From Nostoc sp. S4 (GTDB lineage: Bacteria; Cyanobacteriota; Cyanobacteriia; Cyanobacteriales; Nostocaceae): 64,000 nucleotides of DNA. The stretch covers positions 1-64,000 of the forward strand of contig JAQYWR010000004.1 in NCBI GenBank assembly GCA_029379225.1. Reading direction: 5' to 3'. A program made the translations under genes and the position numbers. Positions 51,595-64,000 of the stretch are shown in pieces. Position 1 is the first letter of the stretch. Each line of letters starts with the position of its first letter. The notes beneath the pieces were generated by a model. The model was not told where the DNA came from, did not search any database, and saw only the letters and a program-made list of their open reading frames with translations.

Positions 51595-52989
51595 TTAAGA
51601 GAGTAAGCGTTGCTGAAATTGTAAAGCTTTTTGAGCTTCGGGAATATTTGAGGCTAAAATTTTCACCAGTTCTACACGAGAAATTTGTCCAGAAGATTTG
51701 ACAGCTTTTTGGACTAGAAACTTAGCTATCGGGCCAATTAAATCAGCTAACTCCCGCTCGCATTTTTCTACAAAGCTGTCAGTTATGAGTTCAGATTCTT
51801 GGTTTGGTAAATTATTCGAGATAATTGTAGAGCGATCGGATTTAACAGTTAACTCCTGGAGTAGAGTAGGTTTCTCTAGTATAAATATTGTTTTATTGTG
51901 AAAATCAATTTGTTGATTTGGTCGCAGATGAAGTGCCAATTGACTAATTAATTCTTCAGAGTTGGGCGCAGACACCGCAACTTGTTGTAGTAATCTTGGG
52001 GCAACAGGGCCGACAAATTCTAAAAGAATTTTTTCTAAGCGATTATAATTTTCTGGAGACAGGATAGGAGCAGGCGCATACCCAATTAAATTTTGTTGAG
52101 AAAGTGAAGCTTGAGGGGGTTGTGTAAAAGATGAAGGTTGAGGTAATTGAGCTTCTACTCTCGTATCGAGATGCTCAAGCACCCTTAAAATTTCAGCCGC
52201 AGACTGATAGCGCTGTTTAAAGTGGTGTAGCACCATCTTAGATAGCACAGATGCCAACTCAGAACTGACGTTAGCCTGATGCTGCCAAGAAATTTCTCCT
52301 GTATCTGGATCTTCCTCAAAGTTTATCGGATGTAAACCTGTGAGTGCTTGGATACCAATAATGCCCAAGGAATAAATATCGCTGTTAGGGCGGGGTTTAC
52401 CTTGCCCCTGTTCTGTAGACATGTATCCTGGGGTGCCAATAATAATACTAGCCCCAGTTTGCCCTGCAACTGTCAGCAGTTGAGTTTGGATTTGTTTGAC
52501 TGCACCAAAATCAATCAGTACTAACTTCCCGTCTCGTTGCCGCCTGATTATATTGTCTGGCTTGATATCTCGATGAATAACGCTGTGGCTGTGAATAAAT
52601 TGCAGAATACCCAATATTTGTTGGAGCAGTTGAATCACTTGCTCTTGTGTCCAACGTTGATTGGGAGGCAATTCTACTTTAAGAGTATGCCCTTCAATAA
52701 ATTCTTGCACCAAGAAAAACTCTTGGTTGTCTTCAAAATAAGCTAAAAGCCGAGGGATTTGGTCATGGTTTCCCAGTTGTTCTAGTGTTTCTGCCTCACT
52801 AGTAAATAGCCGTCTAGCAGTTTCGAGAAATTCGGGGCTGCGAGTGACAGGCTTGAGGTGTTTGACAACGCATTTCGGGAAACCTGGACGGTGGGTGTCT
52901 TGGGCGATGTAGGTTTGACCGAACCCTCCTCCACCTAAAACTTGAAGGACTTGGTAACGTCCGTCTAATAACTGTCCTAACATTGTCAT
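51595..52989 (-). CDS. Ser/Thr protein kinase with duplicated C-terminal module
   Basis: The kinase domain (about 1-275) is complete: glycine loop VLGGGGFGQTYIAQD, Lys in CVVKHLKPV, HRDIKPDN, DFGAVKQ and GTPGYMSTEQ. Following a Pro/Gln-rich linker, the C-terminus holds two similar ~45-residue helical modules (ILLEFVGPVAPRLLQQVAV... about 325-365 and ELADLIGPIAKFLVQKAVK... about 420-460), sharing L..xGP.A..L.Q.AV spacing. No membrane helix, so it is cytosolic. The ATG at 52989 or 52983 is likely; a GTG lies at 52992. Single gene. Confidence 0.88.
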   Translation of the reverse strand: MTMLGQLLDGRYQVLQVLGGGGFGQTYIAQDTHRPGFPKCVVKHLKPVTRSPEFLETARRLFTSEAETLEQLGNHDQIPRLLAYFEDNQEFFLVQEFIEGHTLKVELPPNQRWTQEQVIQLLQQILGILQFIHSHSVIHRDIKPDNIIRRQRDGKLVLIDFGAVKQIQTQLLTVAGQTGASIIIGTPGYMSTEQGQGKPRPNSDIYSLGIIGIQALTGLHPINFEEDPDTGEISWQHQANVSSELASVLSKMVLHHFKQRYQSAAEILRVLEHLDTRVEAQLPQPSSFTQPPQASLSQQNLIGYAPAPILSPENYNRLEKILLEFVGPVAPRLLQQVAVSAPNSEELISQLALHLRPNQQIDFHNKTIFILEKPTLLQELTVKSDRSTIISNNLPNQESELITDSFVEKCERELADLIGPIAKFLVQKAVKSSGQISRVELVKILASNIPEAQKALQFQQRLLS

Positions 52990-52992
52990 CAC

Positions 52993-53490
52993 TTGCCTAA
53001 GTCCTCAAATTAATCTTGGCACAACTACCAGCTTTGGCAAGGTCTGTTGAGAAAGAAACTAGGTAGTGTTAAGATTCCAAGGTTTTTTGAGGATTGTACT
53101 ACAAGTTAATGACTCCCTAAACTCCAGAGCGACTTGCCGCTATATTATTGTTGAAGGTTTAATTTTTGAGAAATTGGCAATTTTTACCTCTTAAATTAAG
53201 TGTTGTTCAACAATGGTAATTAGTTATCACACCATAATTGAAGAGTTATGCAAAACTTATACTTTTTTAGGAACTGGTTAAAGGATTAGCCGTCTAAGGT
53301 GGAGAGTTATTTGTTATTAGTCATTGGGTATGGGAGTACTGTTAGCTTTTTTTTGTGCGTTTAGACCGTGGTGAGTTAGGAGTTATTATTCTCCCTCTGC
53401 CCCCTACTCCACCTCCCGTATGCTTACCCTTTTCATTCTGGGGTAACTTGGTTAACAATGGGTTGAATGTTTTTTAAAAAATTCAATCTT
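52993..53490. other. Spacer upstream of the MltA pair
   Basis: About 500 bp of AT-rich sequence with no gene seen. It must include promoters for the divergent kinase and for the small protein-MltA unit. No clear motif was assigned. Confidence 0.4.
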
Positions 53491-53745
53491 ATGCCTAGAA
53501 CTGCAAATGAATATGCCGTATACCTCCTACTTGAAAGCGGCCATCGGGAAGAAGTACGTTTTCCTACTATTCAAGAGTTTCAGAAGTGGTATAGTGGCGA
53601 ACTTGTGCCCAAGTCTGCTTCTACTGATTTTATTAGCGTCCCGATCAAGAATATTCAGGGAGAGTATATGGTAGTACGCCCTTCTCGGATCGTGGCAATC
53701 CGGGTAGAACCCGTTTTTAGTTCCAGCGTTGAAAGATTCAACTAA
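53491..53745 (+). CDS. Small conserved cyanobacterial protein preceding MltA
   Basis: 84 residues from the ATG at 53491 (MPRTANEYAVYLLLESGHRE); the frame opens at 53467. A compact alpha/beta protein with no signal or membrane helix; the pattern EEVRFPTIQEFQKWYSGE, then SVPIKNIQGEYMVVRPSRIVAIRVEP, suggests a small beta-sheet domain. Function unknown. Its stop codon immediately precedes the MltA ATG, so the genes are almost certainly cotranscribed and translationally coupled. Confidence 0.65.
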   Translation: MPRTANEYAVYLLLESGHREEVRFPTIQEFQKWYSGELVPKSASTDFISVPIKNIQGEYMVVRPSRIVAIRVEPVFSSSVERFN

Positions 53746-55017
53746 ATGATGAGAAAAACCCTTGCTTTGCTTTCCCTGAGTCTGGGAATTGCCTTTGTAA
53801 ATCCTCTTTTATCGGTTGTTGCTCAGGTTCCTAATTTAGTACCCTTGCCAATACCGACTACTCCCGAACTCCCGTCTCTACCAGTACCAATCACTGTACC
53901 TACTCCTGAGGTAACGCCACCGCTAAAACCAATCGCCATTGGAACAGATTGTACGCTGCAGCAGAGTTGCTTGGGTTGGGATGACCAAATTTGGAGTCAA
54001 ACGGGTAGAACAGGCGATCGGCAAGCTTTATTGGCTTCTATTGATAATAGTTTGCGTTACTTAGCAAAGGATGATGCGATCGCAGTGTATCAGAATTATC
54101 CCGTTAAGGAAATCACGCTCGATCGCGTTCGTCAGAGTTTATTACGTTTTCGCCAACTTGTTGTCAGTTCTAACTCACCAGGGGAATTACAAGCAGCTGT
54201 CCAACGGGAGTTTGTTTTTTACCAGTCTGTGGGCAACGATGGTAAAGGTACTGTTAAATTCACAGCTTATTATGAACCTGTTTACACCGCCAGCCGTGTC
54301 AGGACTGCAATATATAAATATCCCCTTTATCGGCTACCACCTAATTTCAGCCAATGGGCGAAACCCCACCCAAAACGAATTGCTTTGGAAGGGAAGGATG
54401 GTTTACTAGGAAATAAAAGTCGGTTGCATGGTTTAGAACTGCTTTGGTTCCGCGATCGCCTCGACGCATACATGGTACACATCCAAGGTTCCGCCCAAAT
54501 TAAATTAACTAATGGCCAAACAACATCTGTTGGCTATGCAGGTGGAACCGATTACCCTTGGACTAGTATCGGCAAAGAACTAGCCAAAGATGGCAAACTG
54601 CCTTTGCAAGGATTGACAATGCCACGTATGATCGCTTACTTCCGGCAAAAACCGCAAGAGTTGAATAATTATCTGCCGCGCTGGCAACGATTTATTTTCT
54701 TCCAAGAAACTGGTGGTGCTGGAGCTACAGGCAGTATTCATGTACCAGTGACCGCAGAGCGTTCCATTGCCACAGATAAGTCTCTTATGCCTCCGGGAGC
54801 GCTAGCCCTGATTTACAACTCATTTCCCTATCCTGCCAGTGGTGGCAAACTCCAGAAGCGTACTGTCAGCCGCTTTGTCCTTGACCAGGATACAGGAAGC
54901 GCCATCAAAGGCCCAGGACGAGTAGATTATTTTATGGGATCTGGGAAATTAGCAGGCGATCGCGCTGGCATCACAGGCGGTAATGGTTCACTATACTATT
55001 TATTGCTCAAGGAATAA
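53746..55017 (+). CDS. mltA: Membrane-bound lytic murein transglycosylase A (MltA)
   Basis: Cleaves peptidoglycan glycan strands to 1,6-anhydro products in the periplasm. A signal peptide covers about 1-27 (LALLSLSLGIAFVNPLLSVVAQ), followed by a Pro/Thr-rich linker. The MltA double-psi barrel (FTAYYEPVYTASR, FFQETGGAGATGSIHVPVTAERSIA) and the 3D domain with the catalytic Asp in PGRVDYFMGSG are present. 423 residues. ATG at 53746 directly follows the stop of the small upstream gene. No lipobox Cys is seen, so it may be soluble or anchored by its uncleaved signal. Confidence 0.9.
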   Translation: MMRKTLALLSLSLGIAFVNPLLSVVAQVPNLVPLPIPTTPELPSLPVPITVPTPEVTPPLKPIAIGTDCTLQQSCLGWDDQIWSQTGRTGDRQALLASIDNSLRYLAKDDAIAVYQNYPVKEITLDRVRQSLLRFRQLVVSSNSPGELQAAVQREFVFYQSVGNDGKGTVKFTAYYEPVYTASRVRTAIYKYPLYRLPPNFSQWAKPHPKRIALEGKDGLLGNKSRLHGLELLWFRDRLDAYMVHIQGSAQIKLTNGQTTSVGYAGGTDYPWTSIGKELAKDGKLPLQGLTMPRMIAYFRQKPQELNNYLPRWQRFIFFQETGGAGATGSIHVPVTAERSIATDKSLMPPGALALIYNSFPYPASGGKLQKRTVSRFVLDQDTGSAIKGPGRVDYFMGSGKLAGDRAGITGGNGSLYYLLLKE

Positions 55018-55068
55018 GTATTAAGTATGGGGCATGGGGAATAGGGTAAACAGGGCATTGGGCAAACA

Positions 55069-55168
55069 GGGAGTGTGGGAGGTGTGGGAGGATGGGGAAG
55101 AAATCTTTCCCCCCTCTCTCCCCACACTCCCCACACTCCCCACACTTCCCACACTCCCCACTCCCCAC
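55069..55168. repeat. G/C-rich nonamer hairpin (inverted copy of the 21.2-kb repeat)
   Basis: Left arm GGGAGTGTGGGAGGTGTGGG (from 55069) and right arm of CCCCACACT units (55120-55165) can pair. The centre GATGGGGAAGAAATCTTTCC (from 55091) is the exact reverse complement of the centre at about 21203-21225. On the minus strand the right arm has four G tracts (55109-55141). It touches the stop codon of the DUF5895 gene. Confidence 0.8.
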
Positions 55169-56038
55169 CTAATACGGCGGATAAGCAAAATCATCTTCAT
55201 CAGCATATACATAAGAACTAGAAACTCCTGCCATTGCCATTTTTGGTGTTTCTGATTTTACAGGTTCCTTGCCAAATTCTTTGTATTCTTCAAAAGTTTT
55301 GCAGATAATTGCAGATTCAGCACAATCGGAAGGAATTAAATATTGTGTTAAGGTTCCTACGGTAGGATGTTTGTAGTCTACAGTTGAAGCTACCAGAACT
55401 GTATTCGGTTCAATGCCTCTTTCTTCACACTCAATTATCGGGCAAAAAATCCCGTGGGCGTGGAACAAAGGGCCTTTTGCACTCAAGGGTTGCTTGCGAT
55501 AAATAGCATAAGCCTTTTCTAGTTCAGCAACGAAGCCACTAACTACTTTCCCTTGTTGAAATTCGCTGTAAGTTTTGCTAAAACTCGCTCCAGCAGCACC
55601 ATTAAGTGTTAATTGTAGTGGTGATTCATGTAAAAACTTTTTATTCTCTCCTACTATAAAAATTAGATAGCGAGTAAAGGTTTTAAATTTAAGTTTGTCT
55701 GCTAAAAAAGCATCATAATTATCTTTGAGCGTACCCAGTTTTAGACCAGTTTCCCGATCTTTGACAGACAATGGTCCGCGACGCACTATAACTAAGCGGG
55801 GAGTAGTGCTAATAAAGACCGTTTCGACTCCAGAGCTAAATTCATGCTCTACCTGCTGCCAATTATCATCTGGCACAAAACCGACAGCATTAGCATTATC
55901 CAGCTTAATCGCCAAACCGTAAGATTGTATACCATCTGTGCCATACCGAGGATTAATCATCTGACACCAGGGGATGACTTGAGAAGGCGGTGCATTAAAT
56001 TTCTCGTCTTCAAAGTCGAAATTAGCAGATGCTTTCAT
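55169..56038 (-). CDS. DUF5895 protein
   Basis: 289 residues, cytosolic, no signal. Recognised from the ordered motifs SQVIPWCQMINPRYG near the N-terminus, GFVPDDNWQQVEHEFSSGVE, and the C-terminal TVLVASTVDYKHPTVGTLTQ. The family is widespread in cyanobacteria, often on plasmids or accessory regions, and is of unknown function. ATG at 56038. It converges with mltA and ends against the G-rich repeat. Confidence 0.7.
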   Translation of the reverse strand: MKASANFDFEDEKFNAPPSQVIPWCQMINPRYGTDGIQSYGLAIKLDNANAVGFVPDDNWQQVEHEFSSGVETVFISTTPRLVIVRRGPLSVKDRETGLKLGTLKDNYDAFLADKLKFKTFTRYLIFIVGENKKFLHESPLQLTLNGAAGASFSKTYSEFQQGKVVSGFVAELEKAYAIYRKQPLSAKGPLFHAHGIFCPIIECEERGIEPNTVLVASTVDYKHPTVGTLTQYLIPSDCAESAIICKTFEEYKEFGKEPVKSETPKMAMAGVSSSYVYADEDDFAYPPY

Positions 56039-56367
56039 CGTTTTAGGCTATCAAGTGTTTTCTTAAACAAGTTTATCGGCAGTGAGTCGATCTTGGGGAG
56101 CCAATTTATGTACTCTGCCAAAACTTTGAAACAACTGCGTTGTGGTGAGCGATCGCTACGGGGGTAATCAAACTGCCATAGTAGTTTTTCCAGAGTAAGT
56201 CAGAATCAATCTATGTTGCAATCCCTGTTTAGTTTTTTAACAGCATATTCTCATTCAAATCGCTCTGGGGATTCAAGAGACTTCCTCTCTAAAAAATATC
56301 CCAGTGTTGAGAGTCAACAGTCAACAGTCAGCAACTTCAAACGAGATAATTTATTTGTTGGAATTCC
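56039..56367. other. Spacer, no gene
   Basis: A short plus-strand frame (56213-56434) runs into the 3' end of the HAD gene antisense and has no protein-like features. It contains GTCAACAGTCAACAGTCAGCA repeats near 56312, otherwise nothing. Confidence 0.45.
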
Positions 56368-57072
56368 TCAAGACTGTTTTGCTGAAATCAAAGCAGCAAG
56401 GGTCTTCAAATCAGGCACTTCTAAATCAGGTTGACTGACTGCTGATACAGTAGCACTAACTCCTTGTTCACCTGCTCGACGGTTCACCCAAACTGTTGAT
56501 ACTCCTAGAGATTTCGCTGCCACTATATCGCGATAAACACTGGCAGCAACGTGTAATATCTCTTCTATCGGTAAATTAATTCTCTCAATAGCAAGTCTGA
56601 AGTTGTTTAAGGAAGGTTTGTAGCTTTTAGCCTGTTGTGCTGTGATAATTTGCTCGAATTCCACCTCCAAGCGCTTAGCTGAGAAAGCAAAGAGATCGTC
56701 ATCTACATTTGAGATAATCACTAGTCTAAAATTTTGCTTGAGGTTTCTCAGTGCCTCAACTGTGTCGGGAAAAGGTAACCAGTACGCGATCGAATCAGCA
56801 AGTGAATTGAGTTCCTTAGCAGTTGGCTCAAAACCTATTCGCTCACCAAATTTCTGGACTACTCTCCTCAAAACTTCTCGATATTTAATGTATTCTCCTC
56901 GTTCGAGTTCTGCTTCAAATTCGGCAAAAAGTTCCAGAATTTGATTGTCATTTAAATCACTATTGTGTCTCAGCAACAGTGGCTTTAGTACCTCTAAGAT
57001 ACCGTTTTCCCAATCGATTAGGGTTCCATAACAATCGAAGGTTAAAGCCTTGTACTGATTGAAGTTAATCAC
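56368..57072 (-). CDS. HAD hydrolase, type II haloacid dehalogenase-like
   Basis: Cytosolic HAD-superfamily hydrolase. Motif 1 TFDCYGTLIDW has the nucleophilic Asp with Tyr at the +2 position, as in L-2-haloacid dehalogenases rather than phosphatases (DxD). Motif 2 is VIISNVDDDLF and motif 3 Lys is in SYKPSLNNF; motif 4 acidic residues are less clear (HVAASVYRDIVAAK). 234 residues, right for the family. GTG start at 57072 (the overlapping ATG at 57074 is out of frame). Substrate unknown. Confidence 0.82.
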   Translation of the reverse strand: MINFNQYKALTFDCYGTLIDWENGILEVLKPLLLRHNSDLNDNQILELFAEFEAELERGEYIKYREVLRRVVQKFGERIGFEPTAKELNSLADSIAYWLPFPDTVEALRNLKQNFRLVIISNVDDDLFAFSAKRLEVEFEQIITAQQAKSYKPSLNNFRLAIERINLPIEEILHVAASVYRDIVAAKSLGVSTVWVNRRAGEQGVSATVSAVSQPDLEVPDLKTLAALISAKQS

Positions 57073-57381: not shown

Positions 57382-59172
57382 ATGACACAGGAAATTCTTC
57401 CTAAAGTAGTTTGTATGGATGCTAAATTTGAGGATATAAAAGTCAATCCTAGTAAAAAATTAAACTTAACTGAACAGCAATTTCATAGCAAATCATCTAG
57501 AGCTTTTTCGGTAGCAGAGGCAGTGGTAAAAATTCTGGAAGAGATGGGAGTGCAGTATGCCTTTGGTGTTTCAGGAGGTGCGATCGCCCCAGTGTGGGCT
57601 GCATTACATCAAAGTTCCATTAAGGTGTTGCACTTTCGCCACGAAGCCGGAGCAGCTTTTGCGGCCACTGAGGCTTACTTTGCTAGCGATCGACCAGTTG
57701 TCGTATTCACTACCACAGGCCCGGGGATCACTAATGCTTTGACAGGGTTGTTGGCTGCCCGTTGGGAGGGCGCTAAGGTAATTTTTGTGTCCGCTTCAAC
57801 CTCCGCGCCACAGCAAGGGCGTTGGGCTTGCCAAGAAACTAGCACCTACACTATGCCCAGCACAGGTATTTTTACTTCGGGGTCAATATTTCATTATGCG
57901 ACTACTCTCGAATCCAGCGATCGACTTCCAGAGGTTTCTCGAAGGCTTAGTCTTGGGCTAGGACAACCAGGAGGATTCGTAACCCATATAAGTATTCCGA
58001 CAAATATCCAAACAAGTTCACTAAAGACTTCTTTGCCACAAGTAACTCTGTCTCAGAGTCTGGCAACAGCAACTGAGGAAACAATCGCCGAATGTGTCCG
58101 GTTACTATCTGAGGGAGCTTTTGCCATTTGGGTAGGCTTCGGGGCGCGGGGTGCTGCAAAGGAGATTTGCCAGCTTGCTGAGAGGACAGGGGCTGCCGTA
58201 ATGTGTTCACCACGGGGTAAGGGTATCTTTCCAGAAGACCATCCTCAGTTTGTAGGTGTCACTGGCTTTGGGGGGCATGAGTCAGTTTTGAGATATATGC
58301 ATGAGCAACGTCCATTGCGCGTGCTGGTGCTGGGAACACGTCTTGGCGAACTGACATCGTTTTGGAACCCAGAGATGATTCCCAAGCGAGGGTTTTTACA
58401 TGTTGACATAGACTCAAAGGTGTTAGGAACTGCATATCCATCTGTCAAGACGTTCGCCATCGAGTCCGATATAGGAGTATTTGTGAAAGCATTATTGAAG
58501 TACTTTCCAGATCGTCCTAGTACGTCAAAAGTTCCGTCACGGCCAATATCTAGGCGCGATGTAATCCATCTACGTGCTGATGGGGAAGTGCGACCAGATG
58601 TGCTGATGAATATGATTCAACGGTTGATTGTCGAAGAGAACAATGCAGTTGTGATGACGGAGGTGGGTAACTCCTTAGTCTGGGCAATTCACCTGCTGCA
58701 ATTTGCTAAACCGTGTCGTTTCCGGGTCAGCACTGGCTTCGGGTCTATGGGACATTTTGTGACTGGTGTCGTGGGTGCTGCTTTAGCCCGGAATGGCAAG
58801 GCGGTTGCTATTGTTGGAGATGGTGCCATGCTCATGAACAGCGAGGTAAACACTGCGGTAAAATACCAAATTCCCGCCGTCTGGATTGTACTCAATGACG
58901 GGCGCTACAATATGTGCGAACAGGGAATGACGTATCTGGGCTTCAACAATGTGGATACAACCATTCCCCAGGCGGATTTCCTTAAGATTGCTCAGGGAAT
59001 GGGAGCTGATGGCATCCGTGTTCAAAGCGAGTACGACATTCAAGCAGCGCTAGAGAAAGCGATGACATTCCCTGGTCCATTTGTTGTTGATGTAGTCATC
59101 GAACCTAACAGCCCCGCACCAATAGCAAGCCGTCTCGACAGTCTGATTTGGCAAGGTGCTACGAATTACTGA
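57382..59172 (+). CDS. ThDP-dependent acetolactate-synthase-like enzyme
   Basis: Thiamine-diphosphate enzyme of the acetolactate synthase/pyruvate decarboxylase superfamily. The Pyr domain starts near residue 42 with cofactor-activating Glu88 in HFRHEAGAAFAATE; the central Rossmann-like domain follows; the PP domain has the ThDP/metal motif GDGAMLM (Asp480) ending at VLNDGRYN. A ~40-residue N-terminal extension is unusual. 596 residues. The gene lies 13 nt upstream of a KAS III-like gene, not beside ilvN/ilvC, so a role in branched-chain amino acid synthesis is unlikely. It probably makes an acyloin or decarboxylates a keto acid for a specialised product. Scytonemin enzyme ScyA is a related precedent, but no other scy gene is present. 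Confidence 0.87.
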   Translation: MTQEILPKVVCMDAKFEDIKVNPSKKLNLTEQQFHSKSSRAFSVAEAVVKILEEMGVQYAFGVSGGAIAPVWAALHQSSIKVLHFRHEAGAAFAATEAYFASDRPVVVFTTTGPGITNALTGLLAARWEGAKVIFVSASTSAPQQGRWACQETSTYTMPSTGIFTSGSIFHYATTLESSDRLPEVSRRLSLGLGQPGGFVTHISIPTNIQTSSLKTSLPQVTLSQSLATATEETIAECVRLLSEGAFAIWVGFGARGAAKEICQLAERTGAAVMCSPRGKGIFPEDHPQFVGVTGFGGHESVLRYMHEQRPLRVLVLGTRLGELTSFWNPEMIPKRGFLHVDIDSKVLGTAYPSVKTFAIESDIGVFVKALLKYFPDRPSTSKVPSRPISRRDVIHLRADGEVRPDVLMNMIQRLIVEENNAVVMTEVGNSLVWAIHLLQFAKPCRFRVSTGFGSMGHFVTGVVGAALARNGKAVAIVGDGAMLMNSEVNTAVKYQIPAVWIVLNDGRYNMCEQGMTYLGFNNVDTTIPQADFLKIAQGMGADGIRVQSEYDIQAALEKAMTFPGPFVVDVVIEPNSPAPIASRLDSLIWQGATNY

Positions 59173-59185
59173 GAGGAGATGAGTT

Positions 59186-60325
59186 ATGGTAGATTACCCA
59201 GTAGGTATTCGGGCGATCGCAGTTAGCTGCCCAAGCGTTAGACGTACTAACGATTATTACCGAGAAAAATATCCTGAATTGGTGGCTCAGGCTGAGGAAA
59301 AAAGCTTGGCAAGGCTATTTTCACTTTCTGAATCGACCCCCAGCAACGAGTTCGATCGAGAAATGACGCCCTATCTCTCAGATCCCTTTCGTGGAACTGT
59401 TGAGCGATGGGTACTCGGCCCAAACGAGTCTTCATTAACCCTAGAGTATCGCGCGGCTAAGGATGCTCTCAAGGCAGCAAAACTTTCTGCTGATGACGTT
59501 GATCTCATGATTGTTGCCTCAGTTTGGCCTGAACAAATCGGCTTTGGCAATGCTGCTTTCCTTGCTCAGAAACTGAATCTGCAAGGCGCAGCATGGAATC
59601 TTGATGGTTCGTGTGGAAGTACTCCGGTAGCGCTGCAAACTGCCTCTGCTTTAGTGCGTGCAGGTGAGTACCGCAATGTATTGGTTGTGATATCATGCAC
59701 TTACTCTCGCTTTGTTGATGAGGACAATACCATTTCATGGTTTCTTGGCGATGGTGCTGGAGCTTTTGTTATCGGTTTACTCGAATCTAACCAAGGAATA
59801 CTCGCTACTAAGACCGTTCATACGGGTAACATAGGCGAGCTTGTTTGCTTAAATGTTATGGGGGAAAAGTTAGGCAATCCAAAGATTCGCATAGAACTGC
59901 CCAAACATGCAAAAAATGTATTAAGCCAGACAGCTGAGGAACTTGTGCATACTTGTTGCATGGGCGCTGCTGTTGCTGCTGGTGTAACTTACGAGGAAAT
60001 CGACTTTTTTCTTTTCAATACACCCTTTGCATGGTTTGCGAGCTTCTGCACGCGCGTTCTAGGAATTGACCGAAAGCGTACGCTCAACCTATTCCCCCAA
60101 TATGCAAATATTGGGCCTGTTCTCACTGTTACCAATCTTTACCATGCTGCACAACTGGGGAAGATTTCTGAAAACGACTTGGTTCTCATTTTTGGCTATG
60201 GGGCAGCAGGGGTTGCCTCTGCAAGTGTAATGCGTTGGGGTAAAGTAGCATTAGGTCCTACTCCCCTCCAAGAATCCGACTCAGTAGTAAAAAATATTGA
60301 AAACATAAGCGTAATTTCTGATTAA
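59186..60325 (+). CDS. KAS III (FabH-like) protein with altered catalytic His
   Basis: Thiolase-fold acyl-transferring or condensing enzyme. The nucleophile Cys143 is in WNLDGSCGSTPVAL. The usual HQAN motif reads NTPF, placing Asn278 at the catalytic His position; the Asn of GNxxxAS is kept as Asn308 in YANIGP. The C-terminal fold is intact (DLVLIFGYGAAGVASASVMRW). 379 residues, longer than FabH (317). Loss of His makes a decarboxylating condensation doubtful and fits acyltransferases of the CerJ/XclA kind. GAGGAG precedes the ATG at 59186, which is 13 nt after the ThDP gene: an operon. Confidence 0.85.
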   Translation: MVDYPVGIRAIAVSCPSVRRTNDYYREKYPELVAQAEEKSLARLFSLSESTPSNEFDREMTPYLSDPFRGTVERWVLGPNESSLTLEYRAAKDALKAAKLSADDVDLMIVASVWPEQIGFGNAAFLAQKLNLQGAAWNLDGSCGSTPVALQTASALVRAGEYRNVLVVISCTYSRFVDEDNTISWFLGDGAGAFVIGLLESNQGILATKTVHTGNIGELVCLNVMGEKLGNPKIRIELPKHAKNVLSQTAEELVHTCCMGAAVAAGVTYEEIDFFLFNTPFAWFASFCTRVLGIDRKRTLNLFPQYANIGPVLTVTNLYHAAQLGKISENDLVLIFGYGAAGVASASVMRWGKVALGPTPLQESDSVVKNIENISVISD

Positions 60326-60365
60326 AATAATCTATCAAGTTTAAAAATTTATTTATAAGTTAAAA

Positions 60366-61337
60366 GTGCAAACAAAAATTCTCGCAATAGGACTTTTCCT
60401 ATTATCTTTCGCATTTCCGTTGAGAGTCTTGGCAAAGAATTATGATGAAATTGTCGTGTTTGGTGATAGCTTCTCTGATACAGGTAATGTATTTAACGCT
60501 ACAGGAAAAGCTATTCCCCCAAGTTCATCTTACTTTAATGGGCATTTTTCCAATGGTTCAATTTGGGTAGAATATCTCGCATCCGATTTAGGAATAAATT
60601 TTAATCCCAAAACTAACTTTGCTTATGCTGGCGCAACTACAGGATTTGAGAACATCGGAGTAAGGAATTTACCAGGTTTACAACAACAAATCAACAACTT
60701 TACCTCAGCAAACCAGTTTGTCGACCCAAACTCTCTCTATATTGTGTGGGCTGGTACTAATGATTATTTAGATTACTTTTTCGGTGGCTCTCCCAACCCT
60801 ACCCAGACAGTCTCAAATTTAATTGATGCAGTGAAAGCCCTTGCTGCTGTCGGTGCTAAAGATATCATGGTAGTTAACCAACCAAATTTGGGTAATTTTC
60901 CAGTTACAGATGGCAGTTATCATACTTCCAGCATACTTAACACTTATAGCAGTGTACATAATTCCCAGTTGAAGACAAATCTTAACTTTTTGAGCCAGCA
61001 GCTAAGTTCTGATACCAACATTATTTCTCTTGATATTGATTCCTTATACAATAGAATCATTGCCGCTCCAAAAGAATTCGGGTTTACAAATGTCACTGAT
61101 TCTTGCATAGGCAAGTTATCAGTGGTGCCGATAAATATTCCTGAGCAACCAGTTGCTTGTACTCCAGATGAGTTTTTATTCTGGGATCAAATCCATCCCA
61201 CGACTACTACTCATAAGTTAATTGCAGAATTAGCATTTTCGGTACTGAAATCAGCATCTGTGCCTGAACCTTCTACAGTATTAGGGGTAATATTAGTTGC
61301 TACTTTAGGTACACTTGGGTTCGTGAAACATAGCTAG
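60366..61337 (+). CDS. Secreted SGNH/GDSL hydrolase with PEP-CTERM sorting signal
   Basis: Esterase/lipase fold. Signal peptide about 1-23 (ILAIGLFLLSFAFPLRVLA). Block I VFGDSFSDTGN (nucleophilic Ser), block II Gly in GATTGF, block III WAGTNDYLDY, and block V DQIHPTT with the catalytic Asp-His. The C-terminus has a VPEPS motif, a hydrophobic helix (VLGVILVATLGTLGFV) and a basic tail KHS: a PEP-CTERM signal for exosortase processing. 323 residues; GTG start at 60366. It follows the KAS III-like gene by 40 nt on the same strand, so it may share the transcript. Confidence 0.85.
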   Translation: MQTKILAIGLFLLSFAFPLRVLAKNYDEIVVFGDSFSDTGNVFNATGKAIPPSSSYFNGHFSNGSIWVEYLASDLGINFNPKTNFAYAGATTGFENIGVRNLPGLQQQINNFTSANQFVDPNSLYIVWAGTNDYLDYFFGGSPNPTQTVSNLIDAVKALAAVGAKDIMVVNQPNLGNFPVTDGSYHTSSILNTYSSVHNSQLKTNLNFLSQQLSSDTNIISLDIDSLYNRIIAAPKEFGFTNVTDSCIGKLSVVPINIPEQPVACTPDEFLFWDQIHPTTTTHKLIAELAFSVLKSASVPEPSTVLGVILVATLGTLGFVKHS

Positions 61338-61422: not shown

Positions 61423-64000
61423 TTATTTACCCCTTGTATTGAGTAAATTTTCTCGATACTCAACTGCCCCTAAAACTTTTAGAGTCCCTATGGTTGCTTC
61501 AGTTATCCCTGTAATGCTAGTGATATTCATGCCTTCATAGGGTCTAGAACTTCTCAAAGTTTTTATACACTCACCTGTCGAAATATCCCAAAGTTTTATT
61601 GTCTCATCTTCACTGCAACTGGCTATGGTGGAACCATTAGGACAAGAAGCTACTAACCAAACCCACCTAGTATGTCCTGACAAAGTTTTGAGGCATTGAC
61701 CATTTCTGACATCCCAGAGCTTCACTGTTTGATCGCCACTGCCACTAGCAAGTATGTTACCTTCCACGGTGAAGGTGGCTGAGTATACAGAATTACTATG
61801 CCCTTGTAAAGTTCTCAAACACCGACCATTTTTGATATCCCAGAGCTTCACTGTTTGATCGCCGCTGCTGCTAGCAAGTATACTACCATCAGGACTAAAA
61901 GCAACTGACCAGACCCAGTCAGTATGACCATACAAAGTTTGAACGCATTTGCCTGTGCTGACATCCCAGAGTCTCACTATTTGGTCATGACAAGCACTCG
62001 CTAAGTAATTACCATCAGGACTAAAAGCAACTGACCAGACCCAACCTGTATGTCCTTGTAATGTCCTAATGCATTCACCTGTATTGACATTCCACAGCTT
62101 TACAGTTTGATCGTCACCGCTACTAGCTAAAATTGTACCTTGGGGGCTGAAACTGACTGATGTAATCCGATTTCTATGTTCTCGCAAAGTCTTAAGACAT
62201 TTACCAGTATTAGCATCCCATAATTTTACTGTTTGATCCTCACTGCCACTGGCAAGAATATAACTATTGGGACTAAAAGCGACTGATGTGACTCGACTTT
62301 TATGTCCTAGCAAACTTTTGCAACACTGACCAGTATTAGCATTCCACAATTTTACTATTCGGTCATTACTACCACTAGCAAGCATATGACCGTCTGAGTT
62401 AAAAGCAACTGACCATATTCTATTGCTATAACCCTGCAAGGTCTTCAGGCAACGACCAGTACTAATATCCCATAGCTTGACCATTTGGTCATCATTAACA
62501 CTAGCAGCTGTGCAATTATCTGGACTAAAGGCTACTGACCACACCCGACAACCATGCCCCTGTAGTTTTTTGAAGCATTGACCTGTACTTACGTCCCACA
62601 ACCTCACTGTTTGGTCTTCACTACCACTCGCTACTGTCTGACCATCTGGACTAAAGGCTACAGAATGTACCCAGTTAAGATGACCCACCAGAGTCTGAAG
62701 ACATGCCCCTGTACGTACATCCCACAATTTCAAAGTTTTGTCATGAGAACTACTTGCCAGTGTATGACCATCAGGGCTGAAAGCAACTGACCAAACCCAA
62801 CCTGTGTGACCTTGCAAGATCTTAATGCATCGACCTGTGCTGATATCCCATAGCCTCACAGTCTGGTCATCGCTGCTACTAGCAAGAATGCGATCGTCTT
62901 TTGGACTAAACGCAACTGACGATACTCTATTACTATGTCCCTCTAAAATGCTCAGGTATTTACCTGTACTTACATCCCACAATTTAACTGTTTGATCTTC
63001 ACTGCCACTGGCTATAATACGACCATCTAAATTAAAACCTACTAACCCAAATCCATTACTATAACCCTTGAGGGTCTGAAGACATTGACCTGTGCTAGCA
63101 TCCCACAACTTAATTGTTTGGTCATTACAGCTGCTGGCAACAATCTGACCGTCAGGACTGAAGGTGACTGACCAAATCCAACCATTATGCCCTTTACAAG
63201 TGAGAAGTTGTTCACCGTTGGTAACTTGGTATAAATGAATCTCTCCATTAGTATCACCTGTAGCTATCAGTTTTCCATCGGGGCTAAAGGCTACCGAAAA
63301 CATACCACCAAGGGTGTCGGCAAAAACAGACTTCCCTAGATTGGCATGAGCAAAATTTGCATTATGCAACTTTACATTCTGCAAGTCAGCTTGCCAAATA
63401 GTTAGATAAGAAAAATCATAACCGCCCAGATGTGTTTCTAAATGACAAAGCAGGTTAAAGACATTTCCTGCTGTATAACTTTGTTCTAGAGGGGATATTT
63501 CTCGTAGAGTTGCTAAAATTTGAGCTAAGTGATTTTCTAGGTTTTTTTTACTTCTAAAGACAGTAAGCAGACCATCTAAAACTGGTTTGATAATAAGGCG
63601 AATTTGAGTATCTTTAACATAATCTTTACCCGTCGCTTTCATTAGAGCATAACGCCTGAATAAATCAATATTCTCAGTGACGATCTCTTCACATACTTGT
63701 TCTATCAAGCTAGTAGTCACATACTCTATAACTACAGGTTGGAGAGTAAAAAGCGATGCAATTTTTTCAATCAGGGTAGGTGTAGCTTTCTCGATTAGCG
63801 ATCGCCTCCCCAAGGATTCCACAGCCTCTAGTAACTTTGCCTGTGGTACTGGCGATATAATATCATCTCGCAATTCTTTTAGTGTTATCGGCTCCCGATT
63901 AATCGCCAACCAATACATTATATCCTTTTCTAAATCTGACAACCGTTCAAACTGCTGCTCTAAAACATCACGAATGTCGCCAAAAACAACTGTGTCTTGT
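61423..64000 (-). CDS. WD40-repeat protein with upstream NB-ARC-type helical region, truncated by the window edge
   Basis: The C-terminal part of a larger protein. The segment around [19 protein letters not shown], followed by helices to residue ~160 of the visible part, resembles the region after the NB-ARC ATPase in cyanobacterial NB-ARC-WD40 proteins. A short pentapeptide-like linker ([20 protein letters not shown]) follows. Then 14 WD40 repeats ([32 protein letters not shown]), enough for two seven-bladed propellers. The frame stays open through the last 58 nt ([17 protein letters not shown]), so the true start lies beyond 64000; a TTG at 63940-63942 is not a real start. Possibly a STAND-type signalling or defence protein. 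Confidence 0.88.
61430..63330 (-). repeat. Array of 14 WD40 coding repeats
   Basis: About 126-bp units, 14 copies, with strong similarity in the CCAGACTGATCAAACAGTGAAGC-like part of each. Repeats 3 and 7 are the most divergent in the middle of the array; repeat 14 lacks the final GH. Confidence 0.85.

Follow-up and report, generated by a model that had tools for sequence, protein, structure and literature searches.

Introduction

What does a cyanobacterium make with genes for a thiamine diphosphate (ThDP)-dependent enzyme, a β-ketoacyl synthase III (KAS III)-like acyltransferase and a probably exported SGNH hydrolase, placed one after the other on the same strand? Such a locus lies at positions 57382..61337 of the stretch analyzed here, the first 64,000 nucleotides of contig JAQYWR010000004.1 from Nostoc sp. 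S4, which we call the window. An initial annotation of the window had proposed an acyloin-type specialised pathway and likened it to xenocyloin synthesis by XclA, XclB and XclC, which combines ThDP-dependent acyloin formation with a KAS-like acyl transfer. Acyloin formation and acyl transfer remained the best inferred chemistry for the two enzymes in our analysis, whereas xenocyloin turned out not to be the closest precedent. On the sequence evidence, the locus probably represents a form of the two-enzyme CybE/CybF pathway of cyanobacterial furanolides that does without the lyase.

The initial annotation knew of no described cyanobacterial pathway with this set of genes. However, the pair of ThDP and KAS III enzymes has been described in furanolide biosynthesis as CybE and CybF (PMC13288894). 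There, the thiamine pyrophosphate (TPP) enzyme CybE forms an acyloin out of two 2-oxo acids; CybF, which is annotated as a 3-oxoacyl-acyl carrier protein (ACP) synthase, then fuses it with coumaroyl-CoA, for which the lyase CybB and the ligase CybC are responsible (PMC13288894, PMC12395478, PMC8777810). The unusual chemistry of CybF-type enzymes is described as a formal Morita-Baylis-Hillman ring closure (PMC12395478). The maculalactone cluster was mined by CybB, CybC, CybE and CybF together (PMC13288894).

A ThDP and KAS III-like pair outside primary metabolism

The three open reading frames (ORFs) are all on the plus strand and are separated by 13 nucleotides (ThDP/KAS III) and 40 nucleotides (KAS III/SGNH), just as first reported. 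The ThDP enzyme (57382..59172, 596 residues) contains the Pfam domains TPP_enzyme_N, TPP_enzyme_M and TPP_enzyme_C and passed the model NF035927 (TPP_ScyA_rel) with 1046.7 bits (cut-off 1000). It scored only 219.1 bits on the IlvB model TIGR00118, well below the cut-off of 538.35. Judged by these scores, the enzyme is not IlvB and the locus is not an ilv locus, in line with the initial annotation, which had named clear orthology to IlvB as a refutation of its proposal. The KAS III-like protein (59186..60325, 379 residues) contains PF08545 and PF08541 (ACP_syn_III and its C-terminal domain) and missed the FabH model TIGR00747 with 101.7 bits against 292.1.

The generic Pfam names by themselves would also suit primary metabolism, with a spare acetolactate synthase next to a spare FabH. 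We rejected this reading, which is close to refuted, as both enzymes fall far below the IlvB and FabH cut-offs and the genome has another KAS III match, 28% identical and resembling its own FabH, as well as seven other TPP_enzyme_N matches. The scytonemin branch was rejected, too. The window enzyme remained below the ScyA equivalog NF035923 (935.6 bits, cut-off 1020), and a separate enzyme in the same genome exceeded that cut-off with 1086.4 bits. Among solved structures, BbmA and CsmA matched the ThDP enzyme best; a literature search on them gave nothing relevant.

The start of the ThDP gene is uncertain. An alignment of 39 upstream regions places the ATG at codon 12 (57415), but not the first ATG, within a stretch conserved in at least 60% of them. 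The same alignment contained no clear conserved block besides the start-codon area that could represent a shared upstream operator. The genome also carries, on another contig (L176:9487-12061, contig C90), a full-length decarboxylase-type ThDP ORF beside a shortened second copy, near an ORF that by eye resembles a cytochrome P450.

The two genes are neighbors in many genomes of the family

We surveyed 145 genomes of the window's family and checked 80 KAS-family matches, two of them fragments, after matches at the level of FabH (about 30% identity or less) had been removed. A ThDP gene was counted as a partner when it matched the window's ThDP gene with E<=1e-120 and lay no more than 800 nucleotides from the KAS match. 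By this definition, 58 of the 80 matches had a ThDP partner, and in 51 of these 58 pairs the ThDP gene was 5' of the KAS gene on the same strand, which is the order in the window. A more distant ThDP gene was found near four of the 22 unpaired matches. The initial annotation had named a lack of co-location in other genomes as a refutation of its proposal; the survey instead shows the two genes side by side in many genomes.

The flanks of 95 loci (35 named) were read, with Pfam names of neighbors taken mostly from one representative per protein cluster, and the loci were grouped by gene content. The window type (W1) has 38 members including the window, and all 38 contain the ThDP gene. The other groups are W2 (n=12), the furanolide type (F, n=13), P (n=13), K (n=16) and ThDP loci without a KAS gene (n=3). 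Short-chain dehydrogenase/reductase genes occur in 12 W loci, and methyltransferase-like genes in four W1 loci. As 45 of the 58 pairs lie outside furanolide-type loci, mining keyed on CybB, CybC, CybE and CybF together would pass over most KAS/ThDP pairs.

All 13 loci of the F group have an AMP ligase, and all but one an aromatic amino acid lyase, the exception (L123) being a contig of 5.3 kb. In locus L116, genes for DAHP synthase, lyase, ligase, ThDP enzyme and KAS (these first genes assigned by cluster membership) are joined by genes for chorismate mutase, tyrosinase, an NAD(P)H-binding protein and a bilin reductase, a set that fits the one given for the maculalactone cluster (PMC13288894). 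Locus L127 has a halogenase-type gene, like the cyanobacterin clusters (PMC8777810).

P-type loci carry a KAS-ACP fusion together with an AMP ligase, a chorismate-binding enzyme, a nonribosomal peptide synthetase and a polyketide synthase, and have no ThDP partner. In L112, L130-L140 and L154, the KAS of the same family resides in frames of about 500 residues, with the ACP fusion seen in the one scanned (L130). We regard these loci as a separate assembly-line use of the CybF-like fold. A class-wide search found KAS matches in 24 of 388 genomes, and 18 of the 22 rows outside the window's family had frames of 504-561 residues, a length like that of the KAS-ACP fusion in the family.

The KAS III-like enzyme belongs to the furanolide-type family

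By sequence, the window KAS III and its counterparts in furanolide-type clusters are members of one family. The window protein is 56.2% identical to the KAS of L116 and 53.3% identical to that of L127, and identities between W1 and F proteins averaged 56.1% (range 49.9-62.9%), compared with the 39.3% published for CybF of P. pacifica and Tolypothrix (PMC8777810). In place of the FabH residues Cys/His/Asn, the window protein has Cys143, Asn278 and Asn308. The cysteine is kept in 49/50 W, 15/15 F, 12/12 P and 12/16 K rows, and the third-position Asn in all 93 rows. The replacement of the FabH His by Asn occurs in 47/50 W, 13/15 F and 12/12 P rows, while the K group is mixed (6/16). The two F rows without this Asn are, we infer, the short FabH-like paralogues of L105 and L151; these two furanolide-type loci contain a STAND gene and, upstream of the lyase, an additional KAS that is short and FabH-like. 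Passages of PMC12395478 on the active site, cysteine and catalysis do not mention the His-to-Asn replacement. An AlphaFold model of the window KAS (predicted local distance difference test, pLDDT, 82.4) matched the folds of FabH, PqsBC and PqsD at 17-25% identity. On the side of the ThDP enzymes, the furanolide-type proteins of L116 and L127, the two of 13 that were scanned, also passed NF035927, with 1003.9 and 1021.5 bits.

Several observations weigh against placing the window so close to the furanolide type. The KAS tree splits into a main branch of F, P and W2 (support 0.72) and another of K and most of W1 including the window (0.99), so the window KAS lies in the branch opposite to the furanolide type. 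Support values ranged from 0.17 to 1.0, with inner nodes down to 0.17. The gene-content groups are not clean clades: four W1 loci (L088, L147, L155 and L159) group with K and two K loci (L108 and L163) with W1, and W2 appears in two places. The ThDP tree, where nodes go down to 0.0, disagrees with the KAS tree on the position of most W2 enzymes. Moreover, L116 stands in for the maculalactone cluster by gene content only.

The genes for the aryl-propenoyl donor are lacking

An aromatic amino acid lyase of the CybB type (PF00221) had no match in the window's genome. The family is present in 17 of the 145 genomes and lacking in 15 of the 21 that have a W1 pair. The genome has 18 AMP-binding matches, but none on the window's contig, which has no CybC-type ligase; the protein most similar to the L127 ligase is 33% identical and is found elsewhere in the genome. 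Because there is neither a lyase in the genome nor a close relative of the CybC-like ligase, cinnamoyl- or coumaroyl-CoA is unlikely as the acyl donor. Against this, a lyase is encoded elsewhere in six of the 21 genomes that have a W1 pair (G015, G035, G061, G078, G096 and G134), and the W1 locus L155 has a ligase gene nearby. The lyase of G015, G035 and G134 sits in their furanolide-type locus, and that of G061 likewise in its second pair.

The locus could nonetheless be a full furanolide producer that draws an aromatic enoyl donor from elsewhere in metabolism. The ThDP enzymes would fit such a role, as only one of 558 columns discriminates the W1 and F groups at 90%/80% conservation. We consider this improbable, as the genome has no PF00221 lyase and the window KAS has Trp185 and Thr146 where the furanolide type has Phe and Ala. 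Another reading is a xenocyloin-like pathway, in which the acyloin would be O-acylated with a plain saturated acyl group without ring formation, and the SGNH enzyme would trim or remove the ester outside the cell. The lack of a lyase in the genome and of a ligase on the contig for an aryl-propenoyl donor favors this idea, as does an esterase orthologue tied to the locus, but the sequence family of the KAS and its catalytic Asn are those of the furanolide type. We regard the xenocyloin-like route as rather unlikely and retain the lyase-less CybE/CybF variant as the probable reading.

The SGNH hydrolase is a member of the locus

The third gene (60366..61337, plus strand, GTG start) encodes an SGNH/GDSL hydrolase of 323 residues (PF00657 Lipase_GDSL, 106.3 bits). 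The initial annotation had listed a third, secreted esterase-like gene, and this gene is indeed a real third member of the window-type locus: an orthologue is present in 31 of the 38 W1 loci and in no other group among the 95 loci. In the family survey, a KAS match adjoins 19 of the 20 best non-self matches (at least 59% identity). The remaining one, in G065, has no KAS match near it; at L164:7194-14001 (G065:C78), the SGNH and STAND orthologues, about 2 kb apart, occur without the ThDP/KAS pair and enclose two ORFs that by eye look cupin-like and deacetylase-like; this is possibly a remnant of the locus. The absence of an orthologue from 7 of the 38 W1 loci, one of which (L069) is cut by a contig end, counts against the proposed reading.

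The protein has the SGNH blocks and, by eye, a hydrophobic N-terminus. It also matched the PEP-CTERM model TIGR02595 with 19.6 bits (cut-off 16), and is probably exported. Two scanned relatives scored below this cut-off (13.8 and 15.8 bits), and the letters PEP occur near the C-terminus in 19 of the 31 orthologues. With simple patterns, the third SGNH block was unmatched in five of the 31 orthologues and the fifth block in one.

Upstream of the locus, positions 51595-57072 of the window form an outer context common to many Nostoc relatives, with a protein kinase, a small ORF, an MltA-like protein, DUF5895 and an HAD hydrolase. It is retained in L070, L082 and L096, where the SGNH gene is missing.

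A convergent STAND gene accompanies the locus

The conserved neighborhood extends past 61337 into a convergent gene for a STAND protein, an addition to the initial annotation. The window holds its 3' (WD40) part (61423..64000, minus strand), and the gene continues beyond the window; as a whole it spans 61423-64998 of the contig (G000:C91), encodes 1191 residues and ends 85 nucleotides past the SGNH stop. The NB-ARC domain is supported by 47.1 bits (cut-off 23.5), and the WD40 repeats are clear. The N-terminal region may be helix-turn-helix (HTH)-like. At E<=0.01, HTH_26 was found in 19 and HTH_3 in 16 of 34 STAND N-termini, and the copy in the window's genome scored below the cut-off (18.8 bits against 22). 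A model of the 97% identical N-terminus from L070 (pLDDT 68.4) retrieved mainly XRE-type structures, none at E<=0.001. We set aside a defense reading of the gene; PADLOC gave one weak match to the N-terminal half (PDC-S27, 21.4 bits) and a second match over the WD40 part that we take to be repeat-driven.

STAND genes were counted as linked when they scored more than 300 bits and lay in the same fetched stretch as the KAS gene. Linkage was found in 34/38 W1, 9/12 W2, 2/13 F, 0/16 K and 0/13 P loci, which amounts to 43 of 50 W loci versus 2 of the 42 loci in the remaining groups of this KAS family, and a looser WD40 cluster added one P locus (3/42). Linked genes were always within 8 kb of the KAS gene. 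Fisher's test gave p 2.2e-16 when loci are treated as independent, which they are not.

Does the STAND gene then belong to the locus, or is it an unrelated passenger of a multi-copy family, or of a shared insertion hot spot, whose position was inherited from a few old events? The second possibility is a serious one, if short of an even chance. Matches to the N-terminal half occur in 140 of the 145 genomes, and in a tree with 12 unlinked loci chosen among the best matches, linked and unlinked genes interleave, so that the linked copies do not form one clade. Seven W loci also lack a STAND match. Four of them have at least 8.9 kb of contig to the right of the KAS gene (L086, L088, L095 and L150), two have less than 500 nucleotides there (L069 and L093), and in L114 the KAS gene is at the contig start, with ThDP and a WD40 piece on another contig of that genome (L141). 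Against a passenger speak the linkage counts given above and the breadth of their distribution: the W1 loci fall into 14 outer-context groups, some of them short contigs, and 13 of the 14 include a linked copy. In some W2 loci the STAND gene lies upstream and is divergent; otherwise it is downstream and convergent.

The K group usually has its KAS gene beside a giant kinase. A Ser/Thr kinase-AAA-GAF-histidine kinase of about 1825 residues (domains scanned in L104) is present in 11 of the 16 K-type loci (L097, L104, L107, L110, L111, L126, L148, L149, L152, L158 and L160), several of which also have a ThDP gene on the opposite strand.

A proposed pathway

Our scheme builds on the observed homology and co-location of the two enzymes, the catalytic-residue pattern, the absence of the lyase and the linkage of the SGNH and STAND genes. 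The ThDP enzyme is predicted to be an acyloin ligase of two 2-oxo acids: after decarboxylating one 2-oxo acid, it would join the remainder to another, and the resulting acyloin would retain one carboxylate. Cys143 of the KAS would then be loaded with an acyl group from a CoA or ACP thioester, the donor probably being neither cinnamoyl- nor coumaroyl-CoA, and the enzyme would O-acylate the acyloin, releasing CO2. With an α,β-unsaturated acyl group, the KAS could also close the ring to a butenolide. Both steps are modeled on the enzyme families. Finally, the exported SGNH enzyme might act on the product in the cell envelope, hydrolyzing or transferring one of its acyl or lactone groups. The convergent NB-ARC/WD40 protein would most likely regulate the operon or sense the product, which is the weakest step of the scheme.

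The operon probably makes an undescribed small molecule because the usual genes for the acyl precursor are lacking and an exported esterase and a sensor-like protein are linked to it. More tentatively, the whole could be a signaling cassette, in which the ThDP/KAS pair makes a small acyloin- or butenolide-type signal that is matured or inactivated by an envelope-anchored SGNH enzyme and recognized by the STAND protein, which, having an HTH-like N-terminus, would be both receptor and transcriptional regulator. In K-type loci, the giant kinase could take this sensor role instead. We consider this a doubtful possibility. If the STAND link is functional, the locus would offer a ligand-receptor system for one large cyanobacterial STAND protein, a class that is mostly unassigned.

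Comparison with known systems

Among the open-licence papers listed, judged mostly by title and the start of the abstract, we recognized none on a locus combining ThDP, KAS III, SGNH and STAND genes. Among more distant systems, PqsD and PqsBC are signal synthases of the KAS III fold that share about 20% identity with the window KAS, an analogy only. ScyA of scytonemin biosynthesis is the nearest other ThDP family, but the window enzyme falls below the ScyA cut-off, and we know of no KAS III in scytonemin clusters. Xenocyloin synthesis resembles the proposed chemistry in its ThDP-dependent acyloin formation and KAS-like acyl transfer, a likeness drawn from its description, not from sequence. 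To our knowledge, that pathway has no SGNH or STAND partner.

Closer are the deoxyenhygrolide loci of marine myxobacteria, where cybE and cybF homologues are co-located without a cyb operon (PMC8777810). They belong to another phylum, their proteins are 44.0% (CybE) and 39.3% (CybF, P. pacifica versus Tolypothrix) identical to those of Tolypothrix, and the passages of PMC8777810 on them name no SGNH or STAND partner. The furanolide clusters themselves (cyanobacterin cyb, nostoclide ncl and maculalactone mac) share with the window a ScyA-related ThDP enzyme beside a KAS III of the same family, with Asn for the FabH His. In contrast to them, the window locus is accompanied neither by a lyase in the genome nor by a CoA ligase on the contig; it has SGNH and STAND genes instead, and the KAS tree puts its protein in the opposite main branch. 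As two defining genes, the lyase and a ligase in the cluster, were looked for and not found, we do not class the locus as a furanolide cluster, although it may work like one. Since its ThDP enzyme passes the ScyA-related model and its KAS is of the same family, the cyanobacterial furanolide pathway with CybE and CybF is, by sequence comparison, its nearest described precedent, and xenocyloin is the weaker analogy.

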